NCBI GenBank assembly: GCA_030835085.1
Contig: JAUQWQ010000039.1
Location: forward strand, 1-32,070
Direction of reading: 5' to 3'
Length of the DNA: 32,070 nt
DNA from: Ignavibacteria bacterium
GTDB taxonomy: Bacteria > Bacteroidota > Ignavibacteria > Tepidaquicellales > OLB5
Part shown: positions 10,388 to 16,527 of the stretch, one piece after another
Position numbering within the stretch: position 1 is the first letter of the stretch
Layout: each line of letters begins with the position of its first letter
Program-made: the position numbers and the translations under genes
The notes under the pieces: model-generated
The model's database searches: none
Told to the model about the DNA's origin: nothing
What the model saw: only the letters and a program-made list of their open reading frames with translations

Positions 10388-11149
10388 TTATTTTACTGCA
10401 ATCACCAGCATCTCATAGTCATCAGTTGTTAATTTATCATTTCTGCTGAATGCGCCAAGCTTCGCGCCGAAAATATCTATCTGTTTGAAGCCAAGTGAAG
10501 TTAAGAGCCATGTTATTTCAGAAGGAACGTAGTATCTTTCATTGCAGTTCAATACTTTATCATTCCCCGCATCATCTTTAACTGTTGTAGTATTAAAATC
10601 GCGAAATGTCATTAAGTCAAATGAATTCTTACCATACTCCGCGCTTCCTTCTTTCTTGTTTGAATCGAAGAAATCTTTAACCGAGTGAAACAACGGGAAC
10701 AACCCATTTAAAGTCGTAAAAATAAGCTTCCCGTTTACTTTAAGCGCATTAGCCGCACCCTGTAATATCCTGAAATTCATTTCATCGGTTTCCATTAATG
10801 AAAAAGCTCCTTCGCATAACATTATCGCCAAATCAAACTCATTAGCAAACGGCAAATTGCGGGCATCGTGTTTTTGAAAATCTATGGTAAGTTTTTCATT
10901 CAGCGCTTTTTCTTTCGCTCGTTTCAGCTGTGAATCCGAGAGATCAACCCCGGTAACATTGTATCCTCTTTTTGTAAGTTCAATTGAATGCCTGCCTGTG
11001 CCGCAGCCGATATCAAGTATCCTTGTTTGTTTATTAAACCCGCATTCTGATTCAATAAAATCACACTCGCCAAATGTGCCCTGAGTGAAATTTTCCTGAT
11101 CATAAGTTAATGCGTAATCTTCAAATAATGTTTCATACCATTGCCGCAT
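10388..11149 (-). CDS. Class I SAM-dependent methyltransferase (Methyltransf_25 type)
   Basis: 253 aa. Motif I ILDIGCGTGRHS (about residues 44-55), strand-2 acidic residue in VTGVDLSDSQ, motif II HDARNLPFANEFDLAIM, and the post-motif ANALKVNGKLIFTT. The N-terminus WYETLFEDYALTYDQE is common in small-molecule methyltransferases of this group. Substrate unknown. It appears to be the first gene of the leftward run that ends at 7102; the ATG at 11149 lies about 130 nt from the convergently placed end of the radical SAM gene. Confidence 0.88.
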   Translation of the reverse strand: MRQWYETLFEDYALTYDQENFTQGTFGECDFIESECGFNKQTRILDIGCGTGRHSIELTKRGYNVTGVDLSDSQLKRAKEKALNEKLTIDFQKHDARNLPFANEFDLAIMLCEGAFSLMETDEMNFRILQGAANALKVNGKLIFTTLNGLFPLFHSVKDFFDSNKKEGSAEYGKNSFDLMTFRDFNTTTVKDDAGNDKVLNCNERYYVPSEITWLLTSLGFKQIDIFGAKLGAFSRNDKLTTDDYEMLVIAVK

Positions 11150-11278
11150 TGTAGTATTTTATTTTTGGTATCATTAAAAAAAATGTGTTTAACAAAATTA
11201 CAAATTACGAAATTTATTTACTATGGATTTATCAGGCTAATGAAATACTATTGGCTGTTGGGATATCGCAGTATTGTT

Positions 11279-12376
11279 CTATTGCTCTATAAACAGTTCA
11301 CCCTGCATTTTATCTATTGGCGGAACGCGGAATAAGTCTTTTCGAGTATGCTGAATATCTTTATTCAACCCGTACCTGAGGCAGCAGGTTTTGAACAGGT
11401 TATGAATATGCTGCGCATATTCGCCTTCGCCGCGCATGCGTGTGCCAAACTGTGGACTCGACATTTCACCACGCCTGATATCCTTAATGCGATTAATTAT
11501 CTTTGATGCTTTTTCGGGGTAAACGCGCCTAAGCCATTCATCAAACAATTCCTTTACGGAGTGGGGGAGCCGCACCATAACTTTCCCTGCGGATTTCGCG
11601 CCGCACTCCGCTGCGGCTTTGAGGATTGCGGGAATTTCCTCATCATTCAGCCCCGGAATTATCGGCGCAGCATTTACACCTACGGGAATTCCCGCAGATG
11701 ATAATTTGTAAACAGTATCCAATCTTTTTGCGGGAACAGATGTCCTTGGTTCCATTTTCCGTGAAAGCTCACGCTTTAATGTAGTTATGCTTATCACAAC
11801 ATTAACCAGATTTAGCTTTGCAAGCTCACTGAGTATATCGATATCCCTTTGAATGAGCGCATTTTTAGTTATCACGCCAACGGGATTCCGGAAATTGAGG
11901 AATACCTTCAGGCATTCACGGGTAATTCCAAGCTTGCGCTCAATTGGCTGATAACAATCCGTGTTGCCGCTGAACATAATTGTCTGCGGCACCCATGATT
12001 TTTTGCGGAACGCTACTTCGAGCAGCTTAGGAGCATCACGTTTGACCATTATTTTGGTTTCGAAATCCAGCCCCGCAGAAAAACCCAGGTATTCGTGCGT
12101 GGGTCTGGCGTAGCAATAAATACAGCCATGCTCACAACCGCGGTATGGATTTATACTATAATCAAACCCAAGGTCAGGGGAATCGTTTTTGGCAAGTATT
12201 GATTTACTGTTATCATTGTAGAATTTAGTTTTAATTCTCACAAGCTCGGGGTCTGAATCAAAGTACTCATCAAACGTGCTCAGGTCGTAATCTATATCCA
12301 ATTGCTCAAACCGGTTCTTTGTATTAACACCAGAGCCTCGTGATTTAAGATCGATATGTTTTTGTGATTCATTCAT
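11279..12376 (-). CDS. PA0069-family radical SAM protein (spore photoproduct lyase-related)
   Basis: 365 aa. The radical-SAM 4Fe-4S motif is Cys81-x3-Cys85-x2-Cys88 in YRGCEHGCIYCYARPTHEY. The surrounding FDYSINPYRG lead, IMFSGNTDCYQPIERKLGITR and the VGVNAAPIIPGLND segment are hallmarks of the COG1533/PA0069 group. The biochemical role of the group is not well defined; its relation to spore photoproduct lyase suggests chemistry on nucleic acid. The C-terminus is QGELFIEQ. Stand-alone gene: a repeat-bearing intergenic region lies upstream and ~130 bases without a gene lie downstream. Confidence 0.92.
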   Translation of the reverse strand: MNESQKHIDLKSRGSGVNTKNRFEQLDIDYDLSTFDEYFDSDPELVRIKTKFYNDNSKSILAKNDSPDLGFDYSINPYRGCEHGCIYCYARPTHEYLGFSAGLDFETKIMVKRDAPKLLEVAFRKKSWVPQTIMFSGNTDCYQPIERKLGITRECLKVFLNFRNPVGVITKNALIQRDIDILSELAKLNLVNVVISITTLKRELSRKMEPRTSVPAKRLDTVYKLSSAGIPVGVNAAPIIPGLNDEEIPAILKAAAECGAKSAGKVMVRLPHSVKELFDEWLRRVYPEKASKIINRIKDIRRGEMSSPQFGTRMRGEGEYAQHIHNLFKTCCLRYGLNKDIQHTRKDLFRVPPIDKMQGELFIEQ

Positions 12377-12736
12377 GTATATTTTCCCGCATCCCTTTTT
12401 CCCTCACCCCCTAACCCCTCTACTTAGAAACAAGTCCTTCGGCCCATAGGGAGAGTGGAGCAATGTTCTAAAGTTTGAGGTTTAGCTCTCATTCGTTACA
12501 GGCGAGGGGAGAGATACCCAAAAATTTCCGGGCTTTTCCCCCCTCTCCTTTAAGGAGAGGGGCAGGGGGGTGAGGTTGCCTTTTATCATTAACTGAATTT
12601 AATATGCATATTGCTTTTATGCAAATCATTGCATGATACTTTTTCATAAAGGCTGTAAAATCACTTCTGAAAAATATTTTCAGAGCTATATAAAAAAAGG
12701 GATTGAATGAAATTGATAGAAAATGCATATTTGTGG
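12377..12736. other. Gene-free region between the radical SAM gene and tRNA-Lys
   Basis: 360 bases with no supportable gene. They hold the imperfect inverted-repeat element at 12402-12575 and, closer to the tRNA, a small perfect hairpin with arms tctgaaaa at 12666-12673 and ttttcaga at 12677-12684. The tRNA promoter must lie in the last ~100 bases, but I see no convincing consensus. The open frame at 12489-12740 (-) is repeat DNA and is not a gene. Confidence 0.7.
12402..12575. repeat. Imperfect inverted-repeat intergenic element with GC-rich hairpin
   Basis: The outer ends are inverted copies: cctcaccccctaacccctct at 12402-12421 and, on the opposite strand, a near match at 12556-12575 (about 18 of 20 positions). 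Inside the right end is a strong hairpin with 10-bp arms cccctctcct (12540-12549) and aggagagggg (12553-12562) around a 3-nt loop. The style matches C/G-rich dispersed intergenic repeats common in Bacteroidota/Ignavibacteria genomes. No coding capacity. Mobility or origin cannot be judged from one copy. Confidence 0.65.
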
Positions 12737-12809
12737 GCATCCTTAGCTCAGTTGGTAGAGCAAATGACTCTTAATCATTAGGCCTGGGGTTCGAGTCCCC
12801 AAGGATGCA
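12737..12809 (+). tRNA. tRNA-Lys (anticodon CTT)
   Basis: A full cloverleaf can be folded by hand. Acceptor gcatcct/aggatgc; D stem gctc/gagc with loop agttggta; anticodon stem aatga/tcatt around loop ctcttaa, giving anticodon CTT, which reads AAG (Lys); T stem tgggg/cccca with loop ttcgagt; discriminator A. The 3' CCA is not encoded. A terminator-like hairpin follows at 12889-12921. No integrase or attachment-site duplication is seen next to it. Confidence 0.96.
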
Positions 12810-12856
12810 CTAAGATTTCACCAAAATCCATCATTTCTTTAAATAATTAGCAGATT

Positions 12857-14545
12857 ATTAAAAAGATAATACCAATCAAAAGCCTTTTAACAGCGGGAAG
12901 CATTCTTCTCGCTGTTTTTTTATCATTTTCGGGTACTGGGTGTACTAAAAAGGACTCCACCGAGAAAATTTTCAGGTATAACGAGCCGAACGGTATCGAG
13001 AGCCTTGATCCTATTACCTGTAACAACTATCCCGCATTGCATGTGCTTATTAATACATGCGAGGGACTTGTTGAGTACGATAAAGAGGCAAAGCTTCAAC
13101 CACTCATTGCCAAAAGCTATGAAGTTTCGCCAGATGGAAAGACTTATACATTCCATTTGCGGAGCGATGTGTACTTCCACGATGATAAATGTTTCCCGGG
13201 CGGTAAGGGCCGTAAGGTTACCGCAAGTGATTTTAAATACTGCTATGAGCGTGTTTGCGACCCGCGTGCAAAAACGCGAGGTTTGTGGGTCTATAGAGAT
13301 AAAGTCGAAGGCGCGGAAGAATTCGCAGCAGCTCCCGACAAAGTGAAAGGTATATCTGGATTCATTGTGCAGGATGACTCGACATTCATAATTAAGCTTG
13401 TTCAGCCATTTGCGCCTTTCCTTAGCATACTTACAATGCCGTACGGCTATGTTTATCCCCGTGAAGCAGTTGAAATGTATAAAGATGATTTTGGATTCAG
13501 GATAGTTGGAACGGGACCATACAGATTTGTAAAATGGGAAGTTGATAAAGAGCTTGCCTGTGCCAAGAATGAAAATTATTGGGCTAAAGATAACGAGGGG
13601 AATGTGCTGCCAAAGATAGACGGTTTTAGTGTATCGTTTATACGGAGTCCCGAAACGGAGTTCCTGGATTTCAAAGAGGGCAAGCTTGATTTCCAGAAGC
13701 CTTCAATTGATGTGTTTGGATTGATAACTGATGATAAGGGCGAGCTTAAACCGGAATATAACTTTGAGCTCATAAAGCAGCCGTATCTGAATACGGTATA
13801 TCTTGGCATAATGCTTAATGTAAAGATGGAGGGCGGCAAGGATAATCCCTTAGCGGAAAATAAAAATCTGCGCCAGGCGCTAAACTACGCAATTGATAGA
13901 GAAAAAATTTGTAAGTTTGTACTTAAGAATAAAGGAACCCCGGGCATTAACGGTCCGTTGCCTATTGGAATGCCGGGATACTCAGCGGATGTAAAAGGGT
14001 ACAGCTACGATAAACTTAAGGCTGTTCAATTGCTTAAGGAAGCAGGTTACCCTGAAGGTAAAGGGTTAACATTAAAGTTGGTTTATCACAACGATGAATC
14101 ACAGCGTGAGCTGTGTGAGGCTTTACAGGCGCAGATGAAGGAAATAGGTGTGAATCTGCAAATTGAAGAGATGCTCGGTGCTACGCACCGCTCAGCGCAG
14201 AATGAAGGTAAGCTGGGCTTCTGGCGCGCCAACTGGGGCGCTGATTACTACGACCCCGAAAATTATTACGCGCTGTTTTACAGTAAGAATGAGACTCCAG
14301 TTGGACCGAATACATCTCATTACAAGAATCCGAAGGTTGATTCATTGTACGAACTGGGATTAAAGCTAACCGATTTTAATGAACGCATGAAGGTATATAA
14401 CGAAATTGATAAACTGATATTTGAAGATTCGCCCTGGATAATTGTGTATTATAATAAGTATATTTACCTTAAGCAGAAGCGTGTTTCAGGAATGTACGTT
14501 GACGGGCTGGGAATTATTAATTTGAAGTATTGCGAGATAAATTAG
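12857..14545 (+). CDS. Oligopeptide-type ABC transporter solute-binding lipoprotein (SBP family 5)
   Basis: An OppA/DppA-like extracytoplasmic binding protein. Family marks: NGIESLDPI near the mature N-terminus, LAxSYEVSPDGKTYTFHLRS-type segment, VTASDFKYCYERV, GTGPYRFVKWE, NENYW, LRQALNYAIDREKI and the RANWGADYYDPENYY block. Canonical starts give only TTG 13037, which would begin inside the mature protein. Upstream in the same frame is a complete lipoprotein signal (KKIIPIKSLLTAGS..., hydrophobic core, lipobox SGTGC), and no ATG, GTG or TTG exists between the in-frame stop at 12848-12850 and that signal. The best start is ATT at 12857, giving 562 aa. No permease or ATPase gene is adjacent, so it is an orphan receptor in this window. 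A terminator-like hairpin overlaps its first 25 codons. Confidence 0.85.
   Translation: MKKIIPIKSLLTAGSILLAVFLSFSGTGCTKKDSTEKIFRYNEPNGIESLDPITCNNYPALHVLINTCEGLVEYDKEAKLQPLIAKSYEVSPDGKTYTFHLRSDVYFHDDKCFPGGKGRKVTASDFKYCYERVCDPRAKTRGLWVYRDKVEGAEEFAAAPDKVKGISGFIVQDDSTFIIKLVQPFAPFLSILTMPYGYVYPREAVEMYKDDFGFRIVGTGPYRFVKWEVDKELACAKNENYWAKDNEGNVLPKIDGFSVSFIRSPETEFLDFKEGKLDFQKPSIDVFGLITDDKGELKPEYNFELIKQPYLNTVYLGIMLNVKMEGGKDNPLAENKNLRQALNYAIDREKICKFVLKNKGTPGINGPLPIGMPGYSADVKGYSYDKLKAVQLLKEAGYPEGKGLTLKLVYHNDESQRELCEALQAQMKEIGVNLQIEEMLGATHRSAQNEGKLGFWRANWGADYYDPENYYALFYSKNETPVGPNTSHYKNPKVDSLYELGLKLTDFNERMKVYNEIDKLIFEDSPWIIVYYNKYIYLKQKRVSGMYVDGLGIINLKYCEIN
12889..12921 (+). terminator. Rho-independent terminator-like hairpin downstream of tRNA-Lys, inside a signal-peptide coding region
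   Basis: Arms aacagcgggaag (12889-12900) and cttctcgctgtt (12905-12916) pair over 12 positions with one G-U, loop catt, followed by seven T (12915-12921). This is a textbook intrinsic terminator for the tRNA transcript. It lies within the reading frame of the oligopeptide-binding lipoprotein that begins near 12857. Confidence 0.7.
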
Positions 14546-14577
14546 AAGTATTATAAAAGAGTTGAAGTGAAAATAGC

Positions 14578-14632
14578 TACCCTCCCATGTCAAAGTCAGG
14601 TCTGCGACTTTCTAAAAGAAGGGGGCTCAAAA
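14578..14632. repeat. Dispersed intergenic hairpin repeat, copy 1
   Basis: C-rich start (accctccc), then atgtcaaagtcaggtctg and cgactttctaaaagaag, ending in ggggg. Inner arms AAAGTC (14592-14597) and GACTTT (14606-14611) form a perfect 6-bp hairpin. The element closely resembles the one at 15464-15513. It lies between the binding-protein gene and the MarC gene. Confidence 0.65.
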
Positions 14633-14675
14633 AGATTCATTGTTATATCATAACCGGAAACATCATTTATATAAA

Positions 14676-15302
14676 ATGTCCATAACAGATCTGCTATCAT
14701 TTACAGGAGTCGCGTTCAGCGTGTTATTCCCGCTGATAAATCCAATCGGGGGAGTGCCCGCATTTTCGGGGTTGACCGCACATGATACACCGGATTTCCG
14801 CAAATCACAAGCGCGGAAGGTCGCAATAAATGTGTTTATTATTCTCATAACCTTTCTGCTTATCGGTAAGCTGCTGCTTGAGTTATTCGGAATTTCGCTG
14901 GGAGTTTTGCAGATAGCAGGCGGACTCATTGTAGCGAACACCGGCTGGCAGATGGTGAATTCCAAAGCTGATGATGAGAAAGAAAAAGCTTCGAAAGTGG
15001 AAAATGTTGATATATCATTTATGCCAATGGCAATGCCGATTCTAAGCGGTCCCGGAGCTATAGGTGCTGTTATAGGCTTATCAACCAACGCAAAGCACAT
15101 ATTTGATTATGTCGGATTAGTTATCGGGATATTCCTGATAGGTATAGTAACATATTTGTTCCTCGTACTATCAATTCCTTTGATGAAAAAACTCGGTTCA
15201 ACCGGAATAAATGTGCTAACGCGTATGATGGGATTTTTTATACTGGCAATTGCGGTGAATCTGGTTTACCAGGGGATACTGGCTTTGACGAAGGCACATT
15301 AA
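14676..15302 (+). CDS. MarC/NAAT-family integral membrane protein
   Basis: 208 aa, the usual family length, with about six hydrophobic helices. MarC marks: FPLINPIGGVPAF in helix 1 (the NP motif), GxxxLxxFGISLGVLQIAGGLIVANTGW in the middle, and PMAMPILSGPGAIGAVIGL (second NP-like/PGAI motif). The start was set at ATG 14676 (MSITDLLSF); an earlier TTG would only add a hydrophilic leader. The family is named after a locus once linked to multiple antibiotic resistance, but its transport substrate is not established. Flanked by dispersed repeats on both sides, so probably a single-gene transcript. A palindrome follows the stop codon. Confidence 0.92.
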   Translation: MSITDLLSFTGVAFSVLFPLINPIGGVPAFSGLTAHDTPDFRKSQARKVAINVFIILITFLLIGKLLLELFGISLGVLQIAGGLIVANTGWQMVNSKADDEKEKASKVENVDISFMPMAMPILSGPGAIGAVIGLSTNAKHIFDYVGLVIGIFLIGIVTYLFLVLSIPLMKKLGSTGINVLTRMMGFFILAIAVNLVYQGILALTKAH

Positions 15303-15306
15303 ATAC

Positions 15307-15327
15307 TATCGAAACGGCGTTTCGATA
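15307..15327. terminator. Perfect palindrome just after the MarC-family stop
   Basis: Arms tatcgaaac (15307-15315) and gtttcgata (15319-15327) around loop ggc, starting 5 nt after the stop codon. The position suggests transcript end formation or mRNA 3' stabilisation, but no T-run follows, so a classical intrinsic terminator is doubtful. Confidence 0.4.
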
Positions 15328-15463
15328 TACAGAGTTACCCCGTTGTTGAAAATCAGAAGACAAACCTTCCAGCCACAAAGTGGTGTAAGGCGCAGCCCCC
15401 ATCTTGGATCTTTGGAATTCAAAATATAAGTTTAATTGTGGATAAATTAATACTAAAGTTCTT

Positions 15464-15513
15464 CATCCCCCCAATGTCAAAGCCAGTTCTTCGATTTAAA
15501 AACAAGGGGGGAC
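15464..15513. repeat. Dispersed intergenic hairpin repeat, copy 2
   Basis: Six C (15467-15472) and six G (15506-15511) flank atgtcaaagccagttcttcg and a short A-rich segment. The order and spacing match copy 1 at 14578-14632, sharing atgtcaaag, c-ag-tct-cga and the terminal G run. The outer arms can pair as a hairpin; the inner arms of copy 1 are degenerate here. Confidence 0.65.
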
Positions 15514-15540
15514 GTTTTCTAACTAAATCATAAATCTTTT

Positions 15541-15564
15541 CTTTGTGTCTTTGAGTCTTTGTGG
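15541..15564. repeat. Triple 8-bp intergenic repeat
   Basis: ctttgtgt, ctttgagt and ctttgtgg in direct succession, followed by a T-rich tail. This 'ctttg.gt' pattern recurs between genes in many bacterial genomes; function unknown. It lies just 24 bases after the end of the leftward Ppx/GppA frame. Confidence 0.5.
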
Positions 15565-15588
15565 CAGTCTTTTTGTTTTGTTTTTATT

Positions 15589-16527
15589 TTAAATAACATC
15601 CCTCAAAAACACGCCATACCTTAAGCCTTTTGTACTGACCTTAACATTATCAAATCCGAATTTTCTCATAAAACATTTTAGTATCAGTATACCCGGAATG
15701 ACTATATCAGCTCTGCCTGTCATATAATCACCCATGCCATACAATTCTTCAATGGGCATTGGAATCAGGCGGTTCAGCACACTTTCAATCTCAGTGATTG
15801 AAATGTTCAATCCATCAACTTTGTTTGCATCAAATTTATCAAGTCCAAGTACTATTGCACCAAGCGTTGTGACTGTACCCGCAACACCGATAAGTTCAGT
15901 ACCTGCAATATCGAAATCAATTTCCTTTAAATGTTCATTAATGAATTTCTCTGCGTTCATTATATCATCAAAAGCAGGGGGGTGGTTATTTAAATATTTT
16001 TCGTTTAATCTGACTGAACCGATATTCATGCTTTTTCCGGTTATCTGCCCGGCCAGCAGATCGTTTAATGTGTTAATCGGGTTTGCTGAAGTTGTAATTT
16101 CCGTGCTCCCGCCCCCGATATCAATTGTTGTTAGTCTTGAATTACTTCCAAGTTTATCGTACACGCCTCCGGCATAGGTCCATTTAGCTTCATCACTTCC
16201 GGAAAGAATCTCGATTTCAATTCCCGTATTAAGCTTTATCGCGCTGATGAATTCATCCCTGTTATGTGAATCCCTGATAAAGCTTGTAGCGGTAGCCGTA
16301 ATTTTATCAGAATCATGGTCTTCGCTGATATCGTTATACTCTTCAAGTATATCTATTGCTTTCTGTATGGATTCAGGCAGTATATTACGGTTTGAATCAA
16401 CCCCTTTTCCAAGCCTTGGTACCCGCTGTATATCAAGTATTGTTTTAATATTTCCGGTTTGTTCATCGTACTCTGCTATAAGCATTAGGATGGTATTTGT
16501 ACCTATATCGATTGTAGATCTTATCAT
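15589..16527 (-). CDS. Ppx/GppA family phosphatase (exopolyphosphatase / pppGpp phosphohydrolase)
   Basis: 312 aa from ATG 16527, the short ~300-residue single-module form. The actin-like ATPase fold is visible: phosphate-1 loop IDIGTNTILMLIAEY at the very N-terminus, TATSFIRDSHNRDEFI, ILSGSDEAKWTYAGGV, phosphate-2 loop IDIGGGSTEI, and VAGTVTTLGAI. Such proteins hydrolyse polyphosphate or pppGpp; which is preferred cannot be read from sequence. ATG 16527 was chosen over 16554 because the IDIGTNT motif normally lies at the start and because it gives a 4-nt ATGA overlap with the prmA stop, indicating translational coupling. Confidence 0.92.
   Translation of the reverse strand: MIRSTIDIGTNTILMLIAEYDEQTGNIKTILDIQRVPRLGKGVDSNRNILPESIQKAIDILEEYNDISEDHDSDKITATATSFIRDSHNRDEFISAIKLNTGIEIEILSGSDEAKWTYAGGVYDKLGSNSRLTTIDIGGGSTEITTSANPINTLNDLLAGQITGKSMNIGSVRLNEKYLNNHPPAFDDIMNAEKFINEHLKEIDFDIAGTELIGVAGTVTTLGAIVLGLDKFDANKVDGLNISITEIESVLNRLIPMPIEELYGMGDYMTGRADIVIPGILILKCFMRKFGFDNVKVSTKGLRYGVFLRDVI

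Follow-up and report, generated by a model that had tools for sequence, protein, structure and literature searches.

A putative tRNA-Lys terminator within the signal-peptide codons of a solute-binding lipoprotein gene in Ignavibacteria, with a possible role in ribosome-gated expression

Can one stretch of DNA end the transcript of a tRNA gene and at the same time encode the signal peptide of the protein that follows, and if so, how does the mRNA of that protein get past the stop? The question is raised by a locus in the window, i.e., the whole stretch of 32,070 nucleotides from an Ignavibacteria bacterium (contig JAUQWQ010000039.1) that was analyzed. On its forward strand, a tRNA-Lys gene with the anticodon CTT (12737-12810; ARAGORN, Rfam tRNA score 74.3 bits) is preceded by promoter-like boxes identified by eye, TTG at 12703-12705 and TATTTG at 12728-12733, which we take to resemble the Bacteroidota-type consensus, and the sequence just 5' of the tRNA is largely conserved in most genus genomes compared. 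The tRNA is followed by a 3' trailer (12811-12888), the last part of which is also the 5' end of a lipoprotein frame, and by a hairpin (12889-12916) that also supplies signal-peptide codons 12 to 21, approximately. The gene in question codes for a SBP_bac_5 solute-binding lipoprotein (12854-14545; Pfam PF00496, E 9.5e-84, 282 bits vs. a cut-off of 32.4), and a gene for a MarC-family membrane protein (14640-15302; Pfam PF01914) lies next to it.

The stem-loop, AACAGCGGGAAG-CATT-CTTCTCGCTGTT on the + strand, consists of 12 pairs, six of them G-C, and a 4-nt loop, and a T7 tract (12915-12921), which encodes Val-Phe-Leu, lies directly behind the stem, so that a G+C-containing stem-loop followed by a U-tract, the form of an intrinsic terminator, extends over 12889-12921. 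The initial annotation had described a 12-bp hairpin with seven T at this place, inside signal-peptide codons and 80 nt after the tRNA; hairpin, T-run and position were all recovered, with a measured gap of 78 nt. Its codon numbers, about 11 to 22 for hairpin plus T-run, agree with a count from an ATT at 12857 and become 12 to 23 if the ATT at 12854 is used. The region 12811-12925 folds with z = -4.7, and none of 200 shuffled sequences was equally stable. A simple terminator scan of 11000-16000 yields 4 sites where 4.9 are expected, so that a match per se means little, and the focal hairpin has the longest stem among these four. A repeated element was ruled out, because the hairpin pattern occurs once in its own genome (allowing up to 3 mismatches), and so was a known Rfam element, since only the tRNA reached the gathering score.

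The lipoprotein frame runs from a stop codon, TAG at 12848-12850, to 14545 and contains no in-frame ATG, GTG, or TTG before 13037. Translated from the ATT at 12854-12856, it shows a Lys-rich start, a hydrophobic core, and a putative lipobox Cys (TGT, 12941-12943), assigned by eye. The first ATT is invariant in 6/6 lipoprotein orthologues, and we take it as the probable start, with the ATT at 12857 as a second candidate. Between stop and hairpin, five of the six, the window included, have no ATG, GTG, TTG, or CTG, the exception being genome G004 with one in-frame ATG. In G002 and G006 the stop codon immediately precedes ATT ATT, and in G006 ATT is the sole near-cognate codon (ATN or NTG) between stop and hairpin. 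The weak ATT start proposed earlier is thus supported as a putative site of AUU initiation. An attenuator reading the Lys codons near the start, with tRNA-Lys upstream, seems unpromising, as Lys is ordinary in that region.

The comparison of genomes indicates to which gene the terminator belongs. tRNA-Lys(CTT) and its upstream stretch are present at 99-100% identity in 11 of the 13 genus genomes, and a terminator-like hairpin follows tRNA-Lys in 11/11 genus genomes with the locus, those of G011, G007, and G008 being different hairpins. In the five genus genomes with the hairpin directly after the tRNA, it starts 77-79 nt behind it, while other genes lie between in G005, G002, and G010 (distances of 1015, 521, and 608 nt, respectively), namely a glyoxalase-like gene and/or a ParE toxin pair according to domain calls made on the G005 copy. 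G009 and G012 are without the lipoprotein gene, and MarC is the next gene there, but trailer, hairpin, and T-run are kept; G009 has lost 1 nt, which shifts the frame, and has a G-C pair in place of a G-U. In the rpoB tree, G012 groups with G000 and G005 (support 100) and G009 stands next to G002, which suggests that the lipoprotein gene was probably lost twice, separately. Retention of the hairpin behind the tRNA in genomes without the lipoprotein gene, together with the 11/11 loci, argues for its being the terminator of the tRNA-Lys unit, as the initial annotation had claimed, and we infer the extent of the transcription unit that it would end.

The inserted glyoxalase-like gene and/or ParE-type toxin pair correspond to L002:151-1025 with matching places in L003, L004, and L007, other relatives being without them, and similar joints near the 3' end of tRNA-Lys hint at a possible tRNA-side hot spot for insertion and deletion. 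In G013 (L007/L103), an ATG of the lipoprotein gene overlaps, by eye, the end of the toxin gene, suggesting that tRNA-Lys, toxin pair, and lipoprotein gene form one operon there.

An orthologue of the lipoprotein is encoded in 6/13 genus genomes (81-100% identity) and in both sister-genus genomes (77 and 75%). Among the six genus orthologues, the same codon is used in 115/118 same-residue comparisons within the hairpin, vs. 69/83 before it and 3584/6666 after it; across the deeper split, 67/70 codons are identical in the hairpin vs. 1934/3892 in the rest. Of 553 gene segments compared for synonymous codon conservation, that of the hairpin comes first, although its residue identity is 0.72 vs. 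an average of 0.85. Comparison of sequences thus indicates that the hairpin is conserved at the RNA level beyond the needs of the protein, that purifying selection on the mature lipoprotein is strong (dN/dS of 0.028-0.049 in the 6/15 orthologue pairs for which dS is finite, with saturation in the remaining nine), and that signal-peptide residues change more freely. The same dN/dS values rule out a decayed gene. Synonymous drift in relatives, which the initial annotation had named as the observation that would speak against its proposal, has not destroyed the stem, and T7 is kept in 8/8 homologous hairpins, those of G009 and G012 included. Folding of codon-shuffled sequences gives a clear signal in G000, G005, G002, and G006 (93, 87, 54, and 161 of 5000 fold as well), not in G010 and G004 (1082 and 1160 of 5000), the stems of which are weak (-7.8 and -9.8 kcal/mol). 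Covariation at the focal hairpin is weak, with one pair changed on both sides, a number reached by 81/500 shuffles, and the case for this hairpin is founded on synonymous conservation. The earlier claim that one sequence is both terminator and signal-peptide code is, in our judgment, well supported by these comparisons.

The order radical-SAM gene, tRNA-Lys, binding protein, and Ppx is common to G013 and G014, and a focal-type hairpin was not found at the syntenic locus of these two sister genera. Since the binding protein follows tRNA-Lys in two sister genera without the hairpin, we favor an origin of the hairpin within an older operon rather than the birth of a signal peptide from a tRNA terminator. 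Inheritance of the hairpin along with the binding-protein family was discarded, as 27 of 30 other homologues show not even a loose hairpin around the signal peptide, and the hairpins of the other three are different ones.

The arrangement recurs at other loci, a point missed by the initial annotation. Two species were scanned, G002 over 0.8 Mb and G009 over 1.2 Mb (2.0 Mb in total), with strict terminator criteria on the sense strand of the first ~35 codons and a simple, purpose-made signal-peptide predictor, and this blind scan retrieved the arrangement behind gyrB, secG, and a PpiC-type gene. Strict sense terminators were present in 4/489 predicted signal-peptide genes vs. 1/892 soluble genes without a signal peptide. 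The focal gene was entered by hand, because the start finder does not read ATT, giving 5/490 vs. a codon-shuffle mean of 0.35 (maximum 2 in 60 rounds), i.e., about 14 times more than codon shuffling predicts, where the five matches represent four families, since one occurs in both genomes and was counted twice. For genes that lack a signal peptide, the count was 1/1036 vs. 0.27. In terms of density, 5 strict terminators in 51,450 nt of signal-peptide codons compare with 1 in the remaining 533,567 nt of these genes, a difference of about 50-fold; other genes had 1 in 92,820 nt of their starts and 3 in 748,512 nt of the rest. On the antisense strand of signal-peptide codons, 0/490 were found. 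With loose criteria, counts exceed the null in both classes (20 vs. 5.2 in signal-peptide genes, 18 vs. 6.6 in other genes), and part of the excess is therefore not special to signal peptides.

Family a encodes a beta-barrel-like protein (Pfam match below the cut-off) about 83 nt behind the PpiC-type gene. Its hairpin is present in 13/13 genus genomes, with 94.2% of cells paired vs. 19-45% when slid and five pairs changed on both sides, a number reached by 0/500 shuffles; the homologue in G013 has no hairpin. In family b, a DUF5683 protein is encoded 30 nt behind secG, and the hairpin is present in 11/11 homologues read (a count that excludes G013, L269), 96% paired in the 10 counted, and also in G014. 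Both partners of one pair are changed in three sequences, and covariation is modest, because 413/500 shuffles reach that number. Family d, a protein without a Pfam match encoded 3 nt behind gyrB, has the hairpin in 8/12 genus homologues, those of G006, G010, G007, and G011 being without it, as are G013 and G014; in the seven counted, 98.8% is paired and three pairs are changed on both sides (4/500 shuffles). Judged from these alignments, compensatory base-pair changes are clear at families a and d and weaker at b. Assigned by eye, the start codons are TTG in a and d, ATT in the focal gene, and mostly ATG, with TTG in two, in b; the non-ATG starts at these loci are suggestive only, since 73/490 signal-peptide genes have one. 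In all four families, 26-35 nt separate the assumed start codon from the base of the hairpin.

A candidate family e, with the protein start MLS[IT]HKI[TP]VLITVLLL... and a hairpin of 13-14 bp with TTTT behind it, was seen in G002 and G009 only (script coordinates G002:C11 at 229125, +, and G009:C2 at 627215, -) and is possibly a fifth family with a shorter U-tract. In G002, codons 43-70, approximately, of the DUF5683 gene (L181, G002:C13), close to where the mature protein begins, contain a tandem repeat that codes for IAALTPFARKDVG; further matches to this region elsewhere on the same contig (L193) suggest that a mobile repeat may have entered the coding sequence here.

How might the lipoprotein be made? 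In the reading that we prefer, with a probability of roughly 0.6, a default terminator of tRNA-Lys lies within the signal-peptide core, and production of the lipoprotein is gated by its own translation initiation. By default, transcription begun at the tRNA-Lys promoter would end at the hairpin, the DNA of which would, as codons, specify the hydrophobic core of the signal peptide. The lipoprotein mRNA must start upstream of the ATT at 12854 and therefore must pass the terminator. A ribosome that initiates on the weak AUU and moves about 4-7 codons would cover the 5' arm; the terminator then could not form and polymerase would pass, so that expression of an exported protein would be gated by initiation of its own translation. 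The footprint of a ribosome is such that the hairpin base is outside an initiating ribosome and is covered after about 4-7 codons. The size of the ribosome is also drawn from the portion of PMC3894217 used here. Ribosome-blocked terminators described elsewhere (in the parts of PMC3894217 and PMC5021804 that we draw on), combined with the 26-35 nt geometry, suggest a rule of stop by default and go if translated. Termination in the cell, initiation at AUU, and ribosome-gated read-through are what we infer. The ORF runs into and over the terminator, as in ribosome-mediated attenuators, and a trp-type antiterminator, i.e., a mutually exclusive fold, was present neither in the MFE nor in the centroid structure of the one stretch folded, 12811-12925; an attenuator, as first suggested for this hairpin, is plausible on the sequence features described.

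The main rival to ribosome gating is constant leakage, in which a plain overlapping terminator with steady read-through would hold the export gene at a constant low level, a matter of compact packing and not of regulation. We regard it as unlikely, if well short of negligible. In its favor, the hairpin persists in genomes without the lipoprotein gene, the fold of 12811-12925 offers no antiterminator, and in 0.8 Mb of G002 a strong terminator stands 1-5 nt behind 5/17 tRNA genes, so that the genus seems to employ U-tract terminators for its tRNAs. However, leakage leaves unexplained why such terminators are concentrated in signal peptides (5 in 51,450 nt vs. 1 in 92,820 nt of other starts) and why families a and d and the focal gene have non-ATG starts, as judged by eye. 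An RNA structure other than a terminator, which delays the ribosome or stabilizes the mRNA during emergence of the signal peptide, would agree with the position of the hairpin over the hydrophobic core and with RNA-level conservation, but each of the eight homologous hairpins has T7 behind its stem, even where the gene is gone, which makes such a role improbable. Chance, i.e., accidental palindromes in T-rich hydrophobic codons, might be invoked for G010 and G004, where about one fifth of codon shuffles fold as well, and for the loose scan, which exceeds its null in genes without signal peptides too (18 vs. 6.6). It is contradicted by the synonymous conservation (115/118 vs. 3584/6666), by the 5/490 genes observed vs. 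0.35 after codon shuffling, and by the compensatory changes at families a and d; a chance hairpin is rejected by the codon-shuffle and conservation tests, and we consider it extremely improbable.

If ribosome gating is correct, initiation of translation on an export gene could switch that gene through a terminator in its signal-peptide codons, requiring neither leader peptide nor regulator. More tentatively, and with the odds somewhat against it, signal-peptide terminators might constitute a recurrent regulatory class in Ignavibacteria, in which a housekeeping gene (tRNA-Lys, gyrB, secG, or the PpiC-type chaperone gene) has its terminator in the signal-peptide codons of the envelope gene that follows, which often has a weak start, and transcription of the envelope gene is granted by a ribosome on the new mRNA. 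Envelope synthesis would then be tied to translation capacity without a regulator protein, and the class would be directly testable by Term-seq in bacteria of the FCB group. It also serves as a warning that RNA signals can lie behind conserved codons and unusual starts in signal-peptide regions.

Among the genes known to start with AUU are infC and pcnB, and the lipoprotein gene would share this start codon with them; to our knowledge, a signal-peptide terminator has no role in either. Attenuators of the pyrL type work through a leader peptide and respond to a known metabolic signal, whereas no metabolic signal is known for the focal locus. PMC5021804 employs a pyrL-type attenuator as a reporter; according to the part of that article drawn on here, its terminator hairpin is blocked by a coupled ribosome, and we propose the same blockage for the lipoprotein gene. 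RNA 3' ends inside ORFs are described for E. coli, those followed up being attributed mostly to processing or Rho (PMC7815308, in the sections used), and the end predicted here would likewise fall within coding sequence. The terms 'signal peptide' and 'signal sequence' are absent from the main text of PMC7815308, and 'signal peptide' is not used in the passages of PMC12207403 considered; our literature search, mostly outside subscription journals, found no paper on terminators in signal-peptide codons or in downstream coding starts. A close parallel is pil1 of Streptococcus gallolyticus, where, in the portion of PMC3894217 considered, the mRNA carries an intrinsic terminator at its 5' end that is read through because a translating ribosome prevents its folding, as may happen here. 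In contrast, pil1 uses a separate leader peptide of variable length (same portion of PMC3894217), whereas the focal locus would use the gene's own signal peptide, and its terminator would also end the upstream gene. We call the arrangement a variant of ribosome-mediated attenuation rather than a proven new class.
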